47,813 bases of DNA from Leptolyngbya sp. Heron Island J (GTDB taxonomy: Bacteria > Cyanobacteriota > Cyanobacteriia > Phormidesmidales > Phormidesmidaceae), in contig NZ_AWNH01000025.1 of assembly GCF_000482245.1 (NCBI RefSeq), positions 1-47,813 of the forward strand. Direction: 5' to 3'. Position numbers and translations under genes: made by a program. Below are positions 25,513 to 38,910 of this stretch, in pieces (positions within the stretch are counted from its first letter, which is position 1; every line of letters starts with the position of its first letter). The notes beneath the pieces are model-generated. The model did no database searches. It was given only the letters and a program-made list of their open reading frames with translations, and was not told the DNA's origin.

Positions 25513-25557
25513 GAGTCAATTCAACGTGTATTAGGTCTGTTTTTTTCTCTATATTCT

Positions 25558-25646
25558 GGCTAACGTTGTCCATCACTCGCCGCAAATCGCCTCTGTAGCA
25601 TAATCTATAACTTCTATAGGGTCGGTGTGCATGGGCAACGTTAGTA
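25558..25646 (-). other. attC-like recombination site after the GNAT gene
   Basis: An 89-bp imperfect dyad read on the minus strand. The outer arms pair CTAACGTTG-CCAT on one side with ATGG-CAACGTTAG on the other, with unpaired extra bases on one arm only, as in attC hairpins. The conserved-end core is GTTAGCC (one mismatch to GTTRRRY). The other core, TACTAAC, contains the TAA stop of the GNAT gene. This position and structure are typical of integron gene cassettes. Confidence 0.7.
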
Positions 25647-26105
25647 TGGTGGTAACTTCTTCACCATCTGTAAACATGGGTTTCCTTCCCAAAGATTCAA
25701 AAATTCTTCAAGCGGCTTAAACCCTACTGACTCATAAAATTTTCTAGTCTTGGCATAGTTAGGATCTTGACTAGAGGAGCCTAGCGTTTTGACTTGAAAA
25801 TACTCAACTCCCAATTTTCGTAACTCCGCTTCAGCAACTTTTACAAGCTGTCGCCCAATACCTTGGCGGTGGGATTTGGGATGTACTGCCATCACATAAA
25901 TCTCAGCTGCGAATTCATTGTGCTGTTTGAGCGCCAAGAATCCTACGACTTGTTTCTGACTCCATGCGAGCAGTGTTGGCAGACGATCAATTTCTTGAAC
26001 ATAATGAACAATTGCCGATTCGATTCCAAACCATCCAGGTAGAAGCAGCAGAATGGGCTCACACAAGGACGCCTGATCTAACTGAGGCTCCACAATCTCA
26101 ATCAT
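25641..26105 (-). CDS. GNAT-family N-acetyltransferase
   Basis: 154 residues. The acetyl-CoA-binding motif is clear: IYVMAVHPKSHRQGIGRQLVKVAEAELRKLG, with the R/Q-x-x-G-x-G/A loop. It is followed by the KTRKFYESVGFKPL block that closes the GNAT fold. The acceptor is unknown (an amine of a small molecule or protein). GNATs are frequent cassette passengers; here the gene is bounded by two GTTAGCC cores (25558-25564 and 26250-26256). Its stop overlaps the attC-like site. Confidence 0.85.
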   Translation of the reverse strand: MIEIVEPQLDQASLCEPILLLLPGWFGIESAIVHYVQEIDRLPTLLAWSQKQVVGFLALKQHNEFAAEIYVMAVHPKSHRQGIGRQLVKVAEAELRKLGVEYFQVKTLGSSSQDPNYAKTRKFYESVGFKPLEEFLNLWEGNPCLQMVKKLPPY

Positions 26106-26249
26106 TGATTTGTCTCACACATTATCTATCTTGAAGCCTAAATGTCAACAAATGTCCCAACAACTGCATCTTTGCCAATCATTACACGATCCAATGTTGG
26201 ATATTTACCAGGAACCTTCAAGGCACTACCCCAGCCCAAAAACGAAGCA

Positions 26250-26322
26250 GGCTAACGGTTTTGGTCAGCAGTTGCCAGTACCTTTACATTCAACCCAATT
26301 AGCTTCAAGCAAGCCGTTGTAC
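26250..26322 (-). other. Candidate attC-like site between HEAT-repeat and GNAT genes
   Basis: On the minus strand it opens with GTACAAC (one mismatch to RYYYAAC) and ends with GTTAGCC, 73 bp in total. The arms pair partially (AACGG-TTG against CAA-CCGTT). The GTTAGCC core is identical to that of the next site, so the GNAT gene between them has the layout of one excisable cassette. The stem is weaker than that of the other sites. Confidence 0.5.
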
Positions 26323-26391
26323 CAGAGCGTGATACAGCACTGAATGCTGACTGAAGATCAATACACTGGATATACCTCAAACAACTACAAT

Positions 26392-30635: not shown

Positions 30636-32246
30636 ATGAATCAAGATAGTCGAACTTTTTTTAACGTCAACTCTTTATCCCCAATCAGTCGTCGTTGGCT
30701 TTTGCGAGGTGTTGCTGCTTTAGGTAGTGCAGCTTTCACATCTCGTTTTATTCACACAAGAGAGATATTGCATGCAAAGGCCTCTACAACAGCAATCAAG
30801 TCTACGAGTTTGCTGAAGGAACTAGATGCGACTCCTAATCCTAGTCAATCTTTGAAAGTGATAATTTTGGGGGCAGGAATGGCAGGACTTTGTGCAGCTT
30901 ACGAGCTAGAAAAGCGGGGACATTCATGTGTCATTCTAGAGGCGGAGCGCAGTCATATTGGAGGACGAGTTCGTACCCTGCGCTTTGGGGATGGCCTGCA
31001 TGGTGAAGTTGGTGCATCGCAAATCGCTAAGAGTCATGAGATAGCCCATCATTACATTAATGAGTGTGAGTTACAACTCCGTCCATCGGTAACAGTCAAT
31101 CCTGAGGCATATTACTATCTACTCAACCAGCGGATACGGGCGAAGAATCCTGAACAGTTGAGCAGTCTTTATAATCTGACTGGTTCGGAGAGAGGATTGA
31201 CGCCGGATGATGTTTTAGGAACTGTCATTGGAAGTCGTCTTTCTCAATTGAGCGAACAGGAGAAAGCTGAGATCTTTGCTCAGCAGATTCAAAATCCAGC
31301 CGTTCGCGAGATGGATAAGCAGTCTATGCTGCAGTGGTGTAAAGCATCTAATTTTTCAGACGATGCCATTGAAATGATGGCGGCGGCAAACGGTTTTTTA
31401 GGCGGTTTGATGTATTGTTCAGCGCTTAGTTTTGTTCGGGTAGGCGCAAATTATGGCGAAATGGAGGAAATCGTGGGTGGTAGCGATCGCTTCCCAACTG
31501 CTTTGGCAGACAAACTCAAATCGAAACCGAGAATGGGTTGTGAAGTCATTCGCCTAGAGCGAGATGATGCAGCATCCAAGGCGGCAGCTGTTTATGTAGA
31601 AGGAAATAGCATCAAGCGAGAAGTCGGAGACTTTGTTCTTTGTACGATTCCTTTCCCTGTTTTATCTAGGCTGGATAATCCCTTTTCTGCTGCTAAGCAT
31701 CGAGCTATTCGGGAGTTTTCCTATGTCTCGGCTACGAAGGTACTCGCTGTAACGAATCGCCGTTTTTGGGAAATAGAGGATGGGATATACGGAGGGAGTA
31801 CGTCGAGCGATTTACCCATCTCTACAGTCCATTATCCTTCAGATAATGCACAGGCCAAAACTCCTGCCATCTCGGCTGCTCCATCTGTTTTGCTAGCATC
31901 CTACACAACAGGTAATCTAGCCCGTTATTTAGCACACTTACCTGAGCAAGAGCGCCATCAAATCGTTCAGCAGAATCTCGCAAAGATTCATCCTCAGGTT
32001 AATCAAAATCAAACAATCCAGAGTATGAAAAGTTGGAGTTGGGACAATCACCGTTGGAGCTTAGGAGCTTGGTCTTTGATCAGGCCCTATCAGCAATTGA
32101 GTCTGTACGAACATGGGATTGTTCCAGAAGGGCGCATTCATTTTGCTGGGGAACATACATCAACCAATCAAGGTTGGATGCAAAGTGCGCTGGAATCATC
32201 GCTAAGGGCTGTTCAGGAAATATTGGTAGAAGCTAACAAAGCGTAA
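30636..32246 (+). CDS. Tat-exported FAD-dependent amine oxidase
   Basis: 536 residues from the ATG at 30636 (a TTG at 30609 is open). A twin-arginine signal SRRWLLRGVAALGSAAF near the start indicates folded export. The FAD motif VIILGAGMAGLCAAYELEKRG is followed by the ILEAERSHIGGRVRT block typical of monoamine and L-amino-acid oxidases. The C-terminal GRIHFAGEHTSTNQGWMQSALESS is the conserved flavin-contacting end. It oxidises an amine or amino acid with release of H2O2 and ammonia; the substrate is unknown. It ends 30 bp before an attC-like region. Confidence 0.88.
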   Translation: MNQDSRTFFNVNSLSPISRRWLLRGVAALGSAAFTSRFIHTREILHAKASTTAIKSTSLLKELDATPNPSQSLKVIILGAGMAGLCAAYELEKRGHSCVILEAERSHIGGRVRTLRFGDGLHGEVGASQIAKSHEIAHHYINECELQLRPSVTVNPEAYYYLLNQRIRAKNPEQLSSLYNLTGSERGLTPDDVLGTVIGSRLSQLSEQEKAEIFAQQIQNPAVREMDKQSMLQWCKASNFSDDAIEMMAAANGFLGGLMYCSALSFVRVGANYGEMEEIVGGSDRFPTALADKLKSKPRMGCEVIRLERDDAASKAAAVYVEGNSIKREVGDFVLCTIPFPVLSRLDNPFSAAKHRAIREFSYVSATKVLAVTNRRFWEIEDGIYGGSTSSDLPISTVHYPSDNAQAKTPAISAAPSVLLASYTTGNLARYLAHLPEQERHQIVQQNLAKIHPQVNQNQTIQSMKSWSWDNHRWSLGAWSLIRPYQQLSLYEHGIVPEGRIHFAGEHTSTNQGWMQSALESSLRAVQEILVEANKA

Positions 32247-32275
32247 TAACATTCCACCCATTAGGCACTTTTGTT

Positions 32276-32502
32276 GCCCAACGGGAAGTTGTGCGGCTGT
32301 GCAGCACTTTTCAAGTATAGCCAATATCTTTCGCTCAGCAGCACCAACGCAGTGTGTACGCTCAGCATGGGCGTGAACTAATTTGGCGCACGGATATGTA
32401 GCCAGCCTTAGATATGACGTGATGCTGAACCGCCCGGTGCGGACCCGCATACCGGGTGGTGTGAGAGGGGATTCGTGAGGATTCTCCCTATCCCGACTAG
32501 AT
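32276..32502 (-). other. attC-like site split by a group II intron relic
   Basis: Leaving out 32354-32497, the minus strand reads ATCTAAC at one end (a perfect RYYYAAC core) and GTTGGGC at the other (32276-32282, a perfect GTTRRRY core). GTTGGTGCTGCTG pairs with CAGCCGCACAAC inside. The TAA in ATCTAAC would be the original stop of the 261-residue gene. Both cores, the stem and the stop-codon position fit an integron cassette end. Confidence 0.65.
32354..32497 (+). mobile_element. Deleted group II intron relic in an attC core
   Basis: The 5' end GTGTACGCTCAGCATGGGCG followed by TGAACTAAT is a typical intron start. The 3' part contains CCGGTGCGGACCCGCAT and ACCGGGTGGTGTG (domain V) and GGGATTCGTGAGGATTCTCCCTATCCCGAC (domain VI; last bases AC). 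The 2-kb middle with the reverse-transcriptase gene is missing, leaving about 144 bp. The 5' exon ends in GT and the 3' exon starts with TAGAT, so excision gives GTTAGAT. Confidence 0.75.
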
Positions 32503-33282
32503 CTTGCGTAATGTTGTTAAAAACTTTTCAATATCTTCCTTTGATGCCACCCCTTGGTTGACGGCTAGGAAAGACACTAACGTAAGCTTCTTGCCAGCAT
32601 TTGCAGCTGCGTATACCTTATGGTGTCCATCAATAAGGTAGTGAGCCAAACACAAATGTTCCCAAATTTCTGGTTCACCTTCCCAAGTAGCTGGCCCCTT
32701 GATATCCAGAATCGACAGTGCCACCGCAGTTGGTTGTTTATTTTGCTGAAATTTACTTGCATACTCTTCAACCTGCTTATAGTCCAGCCAATTATGAGGA
32801 AATGTAGGAATCAGAAATTCAAATATACCCTGTCCATCTGAAAGTATTCGTTTTTCTAGGCGATAGTACTCGGTTTTAGGAAAATGAGGCATACCCCAAA
32901 AACCATCTACTCCCCAAAGAGAGACTTGTTCATGCGTAAAGTAGTCATTTTTATCACCAGGAGTTACCAGAATTGGGGCTATTCGCAATAGCAATACACG
33001 ATACTCACCCATTGGAATAATCTTCTCTAGACTCGACAGAAAACCTGGATGAAGCGCATTAATACCGGAGTTCAGCTCATCTGCGACGTCCCGAGGGTTA
33101 ATACTTTTGATAGCACCTTCCATTCGTTCAAAGAAAAACTCGCAGGTTCCGCAGACATTCCCAATGTGAAACGCTTTCTTACCATCAATCGCTAGATAGC
33201 GATCCCAATTATTGCCCTCCGTCATGAACGTCAATGGACTTTGAGATTGCTTTATTGTCTTTTCTACAATATCTAAAAGCAT
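32497..33282 (-). CDS. Hypothetical protein with ParB-like motif, cassette gene
   Basis: 261 residues. Near the C-terminus, LAHYLIDGHHKVYAAANAGK followed by LTLVSFLAV resembles the ParB/sulfiredoxin-type GHHR motif, seen in nucleases and in nucleotide-binding proteins. A CGTC pair near residue 40 could bind a metal. There is no signal peptide. The stop TAG uses the last base of the group II intron relic; without the intron it would be TAA inside the attC core. The function is unknown. Confidence 0.6.
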   Translation of the reverse strand: MLLDIVEKTIKQSQSPLTFMTEGNNWDRYLAIDGKKAFHIGNVCGTCEFFFERMEGAIKSINPRDVADELNSGINALHPGFLSSLEKIIPMGEYRVLLLRIAPILVTPGDKNDYFTHEQVSLWGVDGFWGMPHFPKTEYYRLEKRILSDGQGIFEFLIPTFPHNWLDYKQVEEYASKFQQNKQPTAVALSILDIKGPATWEGEPEIWEHLCLAHYLIDGHHKVYAAANAGKKLTLVSFLAVNQGVASKEDIEKFLTTLRKI

Positions 33283-33507
33283 TCAGTGACAATCTATGGC
33301 GTGGGGAATTAGACTTAGAATTAACGATGCTGGACCCACTATGGGAGCACCTGGCAACTATTGAACGGAAATTAGAAATACTCGCAAAGCAGGAGATCCG
33401 TATCCAATTAGCCAACAACAAGATGATAAATTTGTGGGAACAAAAATAAGAGCCTCCATAGAAGAAAAATGCCGAAACCCACTTGACACGTTCACGGCTT
33501 CATAGCG

Positions 33508-33590
33508 GTCTAGCCTCACCGAACAGAGTTATCTCAACGTATCCACTCATAAACGTTATGTTCTGTTCCGTGTGCAGGCGTTTGTTAGGA
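33508..33590 (-). other. attC-like site after the Nudix gene
   Basis: On the minus strand it opens with TCCTAAC (33584-33590, one mismatch to RYYYAAC) and closes with GCTAGAC (33508-33514, one mismatch to GTTRRRY). The inner arms pair well: GCCTG-CAC-GGAACAGA against TCTGTTC-GGTGAGGC. It lies 16 bp beyond the Nudix stop. The 83-bp length is normal for attC. Confidence 0.6.
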
Positions 33591-33606
33591 GTCTGTTGAC
33601 GACAAA

Positions 33607-34107
33607 TCATCCTAGCTTTCCTTCGTTGATTACATTGGCGAGACCTACCGGGAAAAGCATCCCGGAGATCAATATCTCAGACATTGGCTGCCAATCAATT
33701 TCATACTGAGAACCTCCTTCCATAAGCGCAGTAACGGAAGCCAGTTCCGGTGTTATCTGGAGTCGGTATGCGATGACGATTTCATGACCAGCATGTCCTT
33801 CGTGCTCGTAAATATTTTCAAGAAACTGGGGATCGCCGTTGGTGCTAACTACTAGCCCAAACTCTTCATAGAATTCACGGACTAACGCCTCATTTGCTGT
33901 TTCGCCAAACTCAATACCTCCACCAGGAGGCCGCCAACCTTTCAGCATGTTTTGATCATCGTAAACAGGCATAACCAAAAGCTTGTCTTCGGCAACCGCG
34001 ATGCCGATGGCAACAGCTCTGATACTTTGTTGGGGACGCCATTTCGGATAGGGCTGTATTTCTTCTGAAAACACTCTAAATCCAGATACGTTTTTGTAGA
34101 TGCCCAA
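33607..34107 (-). CDS. Nudix hydrolase, cassette gene
   Basis: 166 residues. The Nudix box GX5EX7REUXEEXGU is exact: GGIEFGETANEALVREFYEEFGL. It hydrolyses a nucleoside diphosphate linked to another group; the substrate is unknown. The TTG start at 34105-34107 lies inside the GTTGGGC core of an upstream attC-like site, which is unusual; a GTG about 11 codons inside is an alternative. The gene is followed 16 bp later by another attC-like site, so it is bounded on both sides. Nudix genes are common cassette passengers. Confidence 0.82.
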   Translation of the reverse strand: MGIYKNVSGFRVFSEEIQPYPKWRPQQSIRAVAIGIAVAEDKLLVMPVYDDQNMLKGWRPPGGGIEFGETANEALVREFYEEFGLVVSTNGDPQFLENIYEHEGHAGHEIVIAYRLQITPELASVTALMEGGSQYEIDWQPMSEILISGMLFPVGLANVINEGKLG

Positions 34108-34280
34108 CGTCGAGTTGAGCGGCGGTCAATATTTTAGCATTAATGTCTGGACCATAAATTCCGTCTGCTCCTGCGTAGGGTGTACGCCCAGCATGGGCGT
34201 GAACTAATGGGGTGCAAGTCCTCTATGGGGGGTGTTGTGTGAGGGGGGAATCGTAAGGTTTCTCCCTATCCCGATTAGGC
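34102..34280 (-). other. attC-like site split by a second group II intron relic
   Basis: Omitting 34180-34275, the minus strand starts GCCTACC (one mismatch to RYYYAAC) and ends GTTGGGC (34102-34108, perfect GTTRRRY). GAGCAGACGG near one end pairs with CCGCCGCTC near the other, with one bulge. The insertion point is the same as in the first split site (between the fifth and sixth base of the R-type core). Confidence 0.5.
34180..34275 (+). mobile_element. Second deleted group II intron relic
   Basis: It starts GTGTACGCCCAGCATGGGCG, nearly identical to the first relic, and ends in GGTTTCTCCCTATCCCGAT. Only the first 45-50 bp and the last 50 bp remain, so almost all of domains I-V is lost. The next base starts TAGGC, matching TAGAT at the first relic. 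It points toward larger coordinates, opposite to the cassette genes. Confidence 0.7.
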
Positions 34281-35098
34281 GTCAAGGCCAGAAGCTTTGT
34301 CCGTGTCCGCCTCAGAATTAAACTGGAATCTCCTGCGTCAAGGAATTTATGAGCAGGACGCGGTCCCCCAAAATTATTGGTAAGGCATTGAAGCTGCAGC
34401 AAGGACCGACCCTTACGCTTGCCGGCTTTTAGGTCAATTTGAATATTTTTCATCCAAATCAAACCCTCATTCGTATTGATAGTCAAGTGGGTAAATATTG
34501 ATTGATATAAGGAGGTTCACGTTGAACATCAAGGGTTGGTTTATGGAGCGCTTGCTTTGTGGTGGTTTGTCTAATCTAAATAGAAAACATTCGACAAGTG
34601 CTAAAAATTAAAGTCATCTAAGTTTAACTGTTATTCGTATCCATAACTGACAACCAATTGTGTTCTTATCCAGCTTTATGCATACGTGAGATTTTCACGT
34701 ATGGGATTGCCATTGAAAAGCAATTGTTCGTCTATTTGTTGTGCCCTACCTGAAAAAGAATATTTAAAAACACACTTAAACTCCTCTGATAAAGGCGTTT
34801 AAGTGTGTTAATGTTCTCTTTTTTTAGCCTGCTCAGAAAGACAGATCTGCCGATTGAACCCTTCTCATTCTAGATTTCAAAAACAATTTTTTTCATGGTT
34901 TCTGGAATCTAAACAACATAAGTGGAAGTAATCTTCTGCGTGGCTCTTTAAGAACCTAAACACATCTAAAGAGTGCACCAATTTATTTAAACCAAATCAA
35001 TTTCAAACCTGAGAGTTTTCTTTGGAGAAGACGCTGGTTTTGATGTGGTCAAGGTTCAAACATTTATAGTTCACAACAATTCAAAACAGGAAAATCCC
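34281..35098. other. Intergenic region with a possible untranslated RNA
   Basis: More than 800 bp before the beta-helix gene. The first 200 bp hold an open minus-strand frame (from about 34486) that I cannot identify; it could be a decayed cassette gene. A hairpin with a T run at 34769-34809 ends something transcribed on the plus strand, yet no plus-strand gene precedes it. The rest is AT-rich and should contain the promoter of the beta-helix gene. Confidence 0.45.
34769..34809 (+). terminator. Strong hairpin followed by a T run
   Basis: A perfect 13-bp stem, AACACACTTAAAC at 34769-34781 and its complement at 34797-34809, with a 15-nt loop. CTTTTTTT follows a few bases later. On the minus strand the stem is followed by TTTTTAAATA, so it may work in both directions. 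Confidence 0.7.
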
Positions 35099-38107: not shown

Positions 38108-38155
38108 AACTTCATACTTTACGAAAGAGGGCTTTAGATTGCCATGATTTTGTCT

Positions 38156-38241
38156 GTCTAACGGTCCAAATCAGGAGCAGCAAATGACCTCTAACTCAGC
38201 AGCGGTAGCTACAAGCGTCTGCTGCATTTGACTTGTTATAG
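38156..38241 (-). other. attC-like site after the 159-residue gene
   Basis: The minus strand opens CTATAAC and ends with the perfect core GTTAGAC (38156-38162). The arms pair TAAC-AGTC-AAAT-AGCAG against CTGCT-ATTT-GGAC-GTTA with bases unpaired on one side. It begins 20 bp after the stop of the gene. The stem is good; the first core has two mismatches to RYYYAAC. Confidence 0.65.
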
Positions 38242-38260
38242 TGCTTTTTCAACTTGTCGC

Positions 38261-38740: not shown

Positions 38741-38817
38741 TTTACTTTACCTGAGTGTTAAAAAAATAAGCTTCTTCATGGCTTTCAAGACTTACATAGG
38801 TCACGAAGGAATAATCA

Positions 38818-38903
38818 GTCTAACCGGTGAAGTTGTTCTGCAGCAGATAAACTCAAAGGTTTTCAGTCACTTCTCTTGTGTCCGCACCAATGTAGTGTTA
38901 GGT
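38818..38903 (-). other. attC-like site between LysR and the 159-residue gene
   Basis: Both cores are perfect: ACCTAAC (38897-38903) fits RYYYAAC and GTTAGAC (38818-38824) fits GTTRRRY, 86 bp in total. The stem between them is weaker than in the other sites. It starts 7 bp beyond the LysR stop, so the LysR gene is either the first cassette or the native neighbour of the insertion. Confidence 0.6.
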
Positions 38904-38910
38904 GCGAACA

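Follow-up and report, generated by a model that had tools for sequence, protein, structure and literature searches.

For introns of the group IIC-attC lineage the published consensus of the ends is GUGYG and RAY, and the attC sites of integron cassettes carry cores that follow the consensus RYYYAAC/GTTRRRY. The closest known examples come from class 1 integrons: the introns of Klebsiella oxytoca (L171, CP026281.1) and Klebsiella pneumoniae (L172, NZ_CP083057.1), to which S.ma.I2 is added here by name only, lie antisense to the cassette genes in an attC core and start with GTACG, with a TGT|TA junction in L172. One account describes how such introns recognise the hairpin of the attC bottom strand along with a short exon match, then reverse-splice and are reverse transcribed, their target being TTGT/T (PMC7923331). 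The same account already reports truncated IIC-attC introns, among them UHB.F1 from the Tanatar-5 soda lake, a decayed copy that lies within a cassette array and runs against its genes, has lost its 5′ part and has kept its RT domains (PMC7923331). Cyanobacterial attC sites and integrons are also known (PMC8352920, PMC9668308). No report of group IIC-attC introns in cyanobacteria was found in the literature searched, a search outside which three primary IIC-attC papers lie.

The window considered here is the whole of contig C25 (47,813 nt), from the 8.06-Mb, 119-contig genome of Leptolyngbya sp. Heron Island J. It very probably carries two dead copies of a group IIC-attC intron, each within an attC site (Table 1). 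These relics share with L171 and L172 their antisense orientation, their position in the attC core and their GTACG start; whereas the enterobacterial introns have an annotated RT, the relics have collapsed to 142 and 94 bp, and their host is a cyanobacterium. Contrary to UHB.F1, they keep both ends and have lost the middle, twice. The novelty lies in the phylum of the host and in the collapse of the copies, the kind itself being known from other bacteria. A sequence-only reading of the contig had noticed the first copy; the second was absent from it.

Table 1. Features of the two interrupted attC sites and of four intron-less sites in the same contig (R2, covariance model of attC).
Feature	Coordinates	Strand	Remarks
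attC-like site, intron-less	25556..25650	+	R2 26.4 bits, E 2.5e-4
attC-like site, intron-less	26248..26338	+	R2 34.0 bits, E 3.7e-6
attC1 (bottom strand on +), GCCCAAC (32276-32282) to 5′ exon end ...CAACGCAGTGT	32276..32355	+	R2 match 32274-32362, 27.1 bits, E 1.6e-4
Relic 1, group IIC-attC intron, 142 bp (GTACG...GAC), in R″ core of attC1	32356..32497	+	
Relic 1, 5′ end (intron nt 1-27)	32356..32382	+	24/27 identical to L040 intron
Relic 1, RT-gene fossil (intron nt 616-650), 35 nt, in-frame TAG	32383..32417	+	
Relic 1, intron 3′ end, domains V and VI, last 80 nt	32418..32497	+	2 bases fewer than L040
Domain V hairpin of relic 1	about 32429-32460	+	
attC1 3′ exon TAGAT, remainder of R″ core	32498..32502	+	
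attC1 cassette gene, 261 aa, stop at relic 1 border	32497..33282	-	no Pfam family at E 0.001
ORF with NUDIX domain, TTG start as mechanically listed (start putative)	33607..34107	-	PF00293, 1.4e-10
attC2 up to 5′ exon end	34102..34181	+	R2 match 34100-34188, 24.7 bits, E 6.2e-4
Relic 2, 94 bp (first 48 and last 46 nt of the intron)	34182..34275	+	
attC2 3′ exon TAGGC, remainder of R″ core	34276..34280	+	
attC-like site, intron-less, reads TTGTTATA	38154..38244	+	R2 45.8 bits, E 5.2e-9
attC-like site, intron-less, reads GTAGTGTTAGG	38816..38906	+	R2 35.0 bits, E 2e-6

Relic 1 is made of nucleotides 1-27, 616-650 and 1929-2010 of the 2010-nt intron of L040, in three collinear blocks, which bears out the earlier idea that the insert is a piece of group II intron. 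When a 157-base query (the insert with a few flanking bases) was compared with 59 genomes, three congeners matched it, with E values from 1.3e-29 to 2.2e-30. The relic had been described as reduced to its two ends: it is indeed internally deleted, but a piece of the RT gene survives between them, translating as WRTDM*PALDM where the L040 RT has WRTDMQPTLDI. Folding, which had been proposed as a check on domains V and VI, gives −33.5 kcal/mol for the 73 nt that hold them, against a shuffled mean of −25.2, with two of 200 shuffles as low. Domain V forms a hairpin with a two-base bulge, a four-base loop and, in its 5′ strand, a CGC that is putatively the triad expected there, while the stem of domain VI is worse than in L040.

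The left boundary of relic 1 is 32356 rather than 32354, the base from which the sequence-only reading had made its 144-bp excision; because GT is common to the exon end and the intron start, that end lay two bases too far to the left. In nine of 11 distinct related attC sites that lack this intron, five bases separate the C/AAAC of the inner stem from a GTT, as in CAACGCAGTGTTAGGC, CAACGTAGTGTTATGC and CAACGCAATGTTAACC (the exceptions are L188 and L040:5830), a spacing that relic 1 matches only if the intron starts at 32356. A single plasmid attC, compared between its intron-bearing and unfilled copies, likewise places the intron start at GTACG. The predicted join nevertheless stands: attC1 without its insert yields GTTAGAT, on the other strand ATCTAAC, a perfect RYYYAAC, and the other core, GCCCAAC (reverse complement GTTGGGC), is as perfect as had been said. 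The partner core is broken at 32356, after TGT, and resumes at 32498 with TAGAT. The join also gives the adjacent gene the TAA of ATCTAAC, as claimed; the insertion did not, however, cost the gene its stop, since a TAG is present now, its G complementing the last base of the relic. As for the empty sites that relatives were expected to show, four of the nine continue with TA, like the relic site, and the other five with TCGG. A relative's uninterrupted site reading other than GTTAGAT, proposed as a refutation, could be sought only among related sites, because the site's own uninterrupted form was not found.

Relic 2 corresponds to nucleotides 1-48 and 1965-2010 of the L040 intron. It has retained domain VI, lost most of domain V and has no RT codons, relic 1 retaining about 11. 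Both copies are thus without their insides, by deletions that differ between them. Joined at the corrected boundary, attC2 gives the perfect core GTTAGGC, and this boundary is the only one to yield GTTRRRY; within its GTTGGGC core lies the TTG at which the NUDIX ORF is listed to begin. Both relics lie on the plus strand, that is, on the attC bottom strand, with the cassette genes on the minus strand, and split the R″ core just before its TA, relic 1 following TGT and relic 2 following GGT; in attC1, this core lies at the stop of the cassette gene. An intron antisense to its cassette gene in the R″ core of an attC bottom strand, here in a cyanobacterium, is what the first reading had described. 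The junctions read GTGT/T and GGGT/T, so that the last two exon bases and the next T agree with TTGT/T and the first bases differ. The 3′ ends, GAC or GAT, fit RAY, while the 5′ GTACG is one base off GUGYG, as it is in L172. The class C RT of the IIC-attC lineage is present in the full-length relatives only. A scan of the window at the Rfam gathering thresholds gave no match, and at E values up to 10 the stretch 32200-35045 gave three, none of them a group II intron.

The two interrupted sites belong to an array. With R2, a model trained without window sequence, nine matches were found in the window at E≤1 and six at E<1e-3, all on the plus strand; both interrupted sites are among the six. Scores of the relic sites with the attC models are low. 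A rejected model, R1, built on the left boundary 32354, had given the two relic sites 16.0 and 21.9 bits against 27.1 and 24.7 for R2, a comparison that is no clean test of the boundary because R2 has more pairs and two more rows. No TIGR02249 integrase lies on the contig among the matches listed (down to near E 3e-8). The window, whose several attC sites all point the same way and are accompanied by no listed integrase, is a CALIN, and it differs from other CALINs in that two of its attC sites hold intron relics. Elsewhere in the genome, three intact integrases exceed the TIGR02249 cut-off (contigs C74, C6 and C71), such matches being found in 25 of 59 genomes and in none of 14 control genomes. 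Of the stretches of these three contigs that were scanned, those of C74 and C6 contain R2 matches at E≤0.1 and that of C71 contains none. Across eight genomes of the genus, with at most 150 candidates scored per genome, R2 at E≤0.01 counted at least 29 sites in the own genome and at least 17, 2, 33, 10, 4, 3 and 30 in the others.

The attC hairpin is also evident across sites. The alignment contains 18 of them, 16 obtained by joining the exons around cyanobacterial introns and two naturally empty, and 87.2% of its 288 cells are paired, a value reached by none of 500 shuffles. Double changes are found in 36 cells (shuffled mean 16.2; 0/500 as high) and in 10 of the 16 pairs (14/500 as high). 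Sliding the hairpin by one to three columns lowers pairing to 22-43% every time, a control biased in favour of the structure because the latter was derived from the same sequences. GTT is invariant in all 18 sites of alignment A2, which is partly built in, two bases having been added to all 16 joined sites; in five of these (L078, L079, L080, L081 and L086), the 3′ end was set by a text pattern in both alignments A1 and A2. GTTRRRY is strictly matched by six of the 16 cyanobacterial joins and by one of the 11 related intron-less sites (L043). Sites in cyanobacteria thus often follow the consensus only loosely; both window joins are perfect.

The related sites used for the attC models were chosen by the authors, and L047 was excluded because of its un-attC-like appearance. 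Among eight cyanobacterial insertion points outside the model (one each in L008, L041, L042, L045, L047, L049, L057 and L101), five fall on R2 matches at E<1e-3, a sixth on a weak one (E 0.13) and the other two on none. At L047:6995 and L057:5688, copies of the relic family occupy sites without an R2 match. A cruder core-and-hairpin score, on which the verdict is not based, reached at least 8 in 40 of 67 RT loci, compared with 4.2% of up to 3000 random positions; it is blind to cores such as CATAACG, some of the 5′ ends it used, accepted to E 10, are spurious, and it covers only the loci with a 5′ end, which 19 of 86 lacked. The attC-like site at L040:5830-5930, whose 3′ part reads GTGTACAGCCCAGCAC, is perhaps the start of another decayed intron.

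The intron family is represented at full length in the culture-collection strain Leptolyngbya sp. PCC 7375 (NZ_JH993793.1; L040:7896-9905, also L076). This 2010-bp copy lies in an attC-like site by the same mode of insertion and matches relic 1 at 95% identity across the final 81 nt; unlike the window relics, it is complete and has an open RT of 445 aa (260463-261797 of NZ_JH993793.1), whose closest match in the PDB is the GsI-IIC RT (3e-130). The full-length copy sought is thus found in the same genus, not in the own genome, where no RT of the relic family was detected in the assembly and identity does not exceed 26-39% in the 13 matches at E≤0.001; the family therefore looks extinct there, as assembled. 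It has left further traces in that genome: a 188-nt 5′ end at an R2 match on contig C17 (L008), and 3′ ends on C21 (L007) and C12 (L009).

Matches to the RT at E≤1e-60 occur in five of 59 genomes, one of them (G011, L051, about 48-49% identical) outside the attC clade, and matches of at least 64% identity in three of 386 genomes of the phylum. The best 80 of 265 related stretches in named genomes were used, coming from cyanobacteria, Pseudomonadota, desulfobacteria, Nitrospirota, Planctomycetota and others. In an RT tree built by a quick method from 86 of 91 loci (open match of at least 330 residues; L080 and L086 among those dropped), with several long branches, L050 groups with 13 named cyanobacterial rows in a single clade (SH-aLRT 99). 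This clade is nested in a 72-row clade (SH-aLRT 99), attC location being established for part of its rows, together with L171 and L172, which adjoin aadA2 in plasmid cassette arrays; the plasmid introns L173, L174, L177 and L178, with no adjoining cassettes by annotation, fall outside. The RT of the class 1 integron introns is 47-49% identical to the cyanobacterial one. Intron ends were paired in 74 rows by profile only, with some 3′ ends extrapolated, some copies doubled (L040/L076, L050/L084) and one 6257-bp row (L045) that joins distant ends. L046, L047 and L048 (G013) measure 709-731 bp, have no RT-gene match and occupy different sites, possibly having moved in trans; L044 (785 bp) has a single large internal deletion; and L135:398-6475 is a head-to-tail series of three copies, about 2030 bp long and without intervening exon, of which the last is truncated at the locus end.

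Could the end-only relics be a mobile miniature form, moved in trans by the RT of a full-length relative? Five of the 74 end pairs, 669-785 bp long, lack most or all of the RT gene, and two planctomycete bins hold a pair of distinct 173-bp copies that share their junction and 81% of their bases and lie in different flanks (L127:5415-5587, Pirellulaceae KatS3mg111; L151:530-702, Gemmatales KatS3mg105). That junction, however, falls on the short common word GCTCC and could result from the same deletion occurring twice, and the two bins may share a contig, since an identical copy is found in both. The window relics, for their part, differ in their junctions; those of relic 1 are absent from the other 58 genomes compared, and that of relic 2 does not reappear among the related loci compared. 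The own genome is also without a family RT match, and most of domain I, the seat of the exon-binding sites (PMC7923331), is lost, all of which makes a mobile miniature very improbable.

We give equally little credit to the idea that the pieces were kept for a host function, such as a promoter or terminator for neighbouring cassettes. Some IIC-attC introns do drive cassettes from outward promoters (PMC8876359), a distance of 75 bp separates the 5′ end of relic 2 from the point where the NUDIX ORF is listed to begin, and the stretch 32230-34400 holds six terminator-like matches against 2.1 in shuffles. Yet sigma-70-like matches are absent from its minus strand, its two promoter-like matches (3.5 in shuffles) are both on the plus strand, and terminator-like matches within the relics amount to two in relic 2, on the plus strand and thus against the cassette genes, and to none in relic 1. 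Finally, that these were terminator-targeting IIC introns lying beside hairpins by chance, the attC context being coincidental, would agree with the use of terminators by IIC introns (PMC4424553) and with two of the eight held-out insertions (L047 and L057) lying away from attC-like sites, but is largely ruled out already by the compensatory changes in hairpins across sites and by the nine same-orientation sites of the window, both copies moreover splitting the R″ core at the same base, and we consider it next to impossible.

On the favoured reading, that of two dead IIC-attC introns, the following course of events would apply, in keeping with what is known of how IIC introns move. Once excised, the intron RNA and its class C RT would have recognised the attC hairpin and a short 5′-exon match; the intron would have reverse-spliced into the single-stranded attC bottom strand and then been copied into DNA. 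Internal deletions would later have removed the RT gene and nearly all of domains I-IV, a loss that would leave the relics unable to splice or move, and from their sequence they are indeed predicted to be dead on both counts. As the insert splits the stem of the R box, recombination of attC1 and attC2 should be poor or absent, and their cassettes would then be held in place. Uninterrupted alleles are expected to read TGTTAGAT at the relic 1 site and GGTTAGGC at the relic 2 site; none was found for either, and the attC1 cassette gene has a homologue in one of 62 other genomes, fragmented and without a nearby attC match. Against the favoured reading weigh the missing alleles, the departures of target and 5′ end from the published consensus, the empty Rfam scan at the gathering thresholds, the small share of joins and related sites that strictly match GTTRRRY, the two held-out insertions away from attC-like sites and the place of L051 outside the attC clade.

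It seems unlikely that IIC-attC introns, in cyanobacteria and also in planctomycetes, regularly shrink to miniatures made of their two ends, remain in the attC core and thereby fix mobile cassettes; if true, this would be a retroelement freezing integron arrays. The two copies extend integron-targeting group II introns to Cyanobacteria, where the full-length copy of PCC 7375 makes attC-directed retrohoming testable, and they offer natural cases of an attC interrupted at a known base.

Two further features lie in the window. At about 33508-33592, after the NUDIX ORF, a decayed attC-like hairpin can be made out by eye (GTCTAGC ... GTTAGGA), with no R2 match at E≤1. Further along, 34769-34809 form a 17-nt inverted repeat, 94% complementary, with a 7-nt loop.
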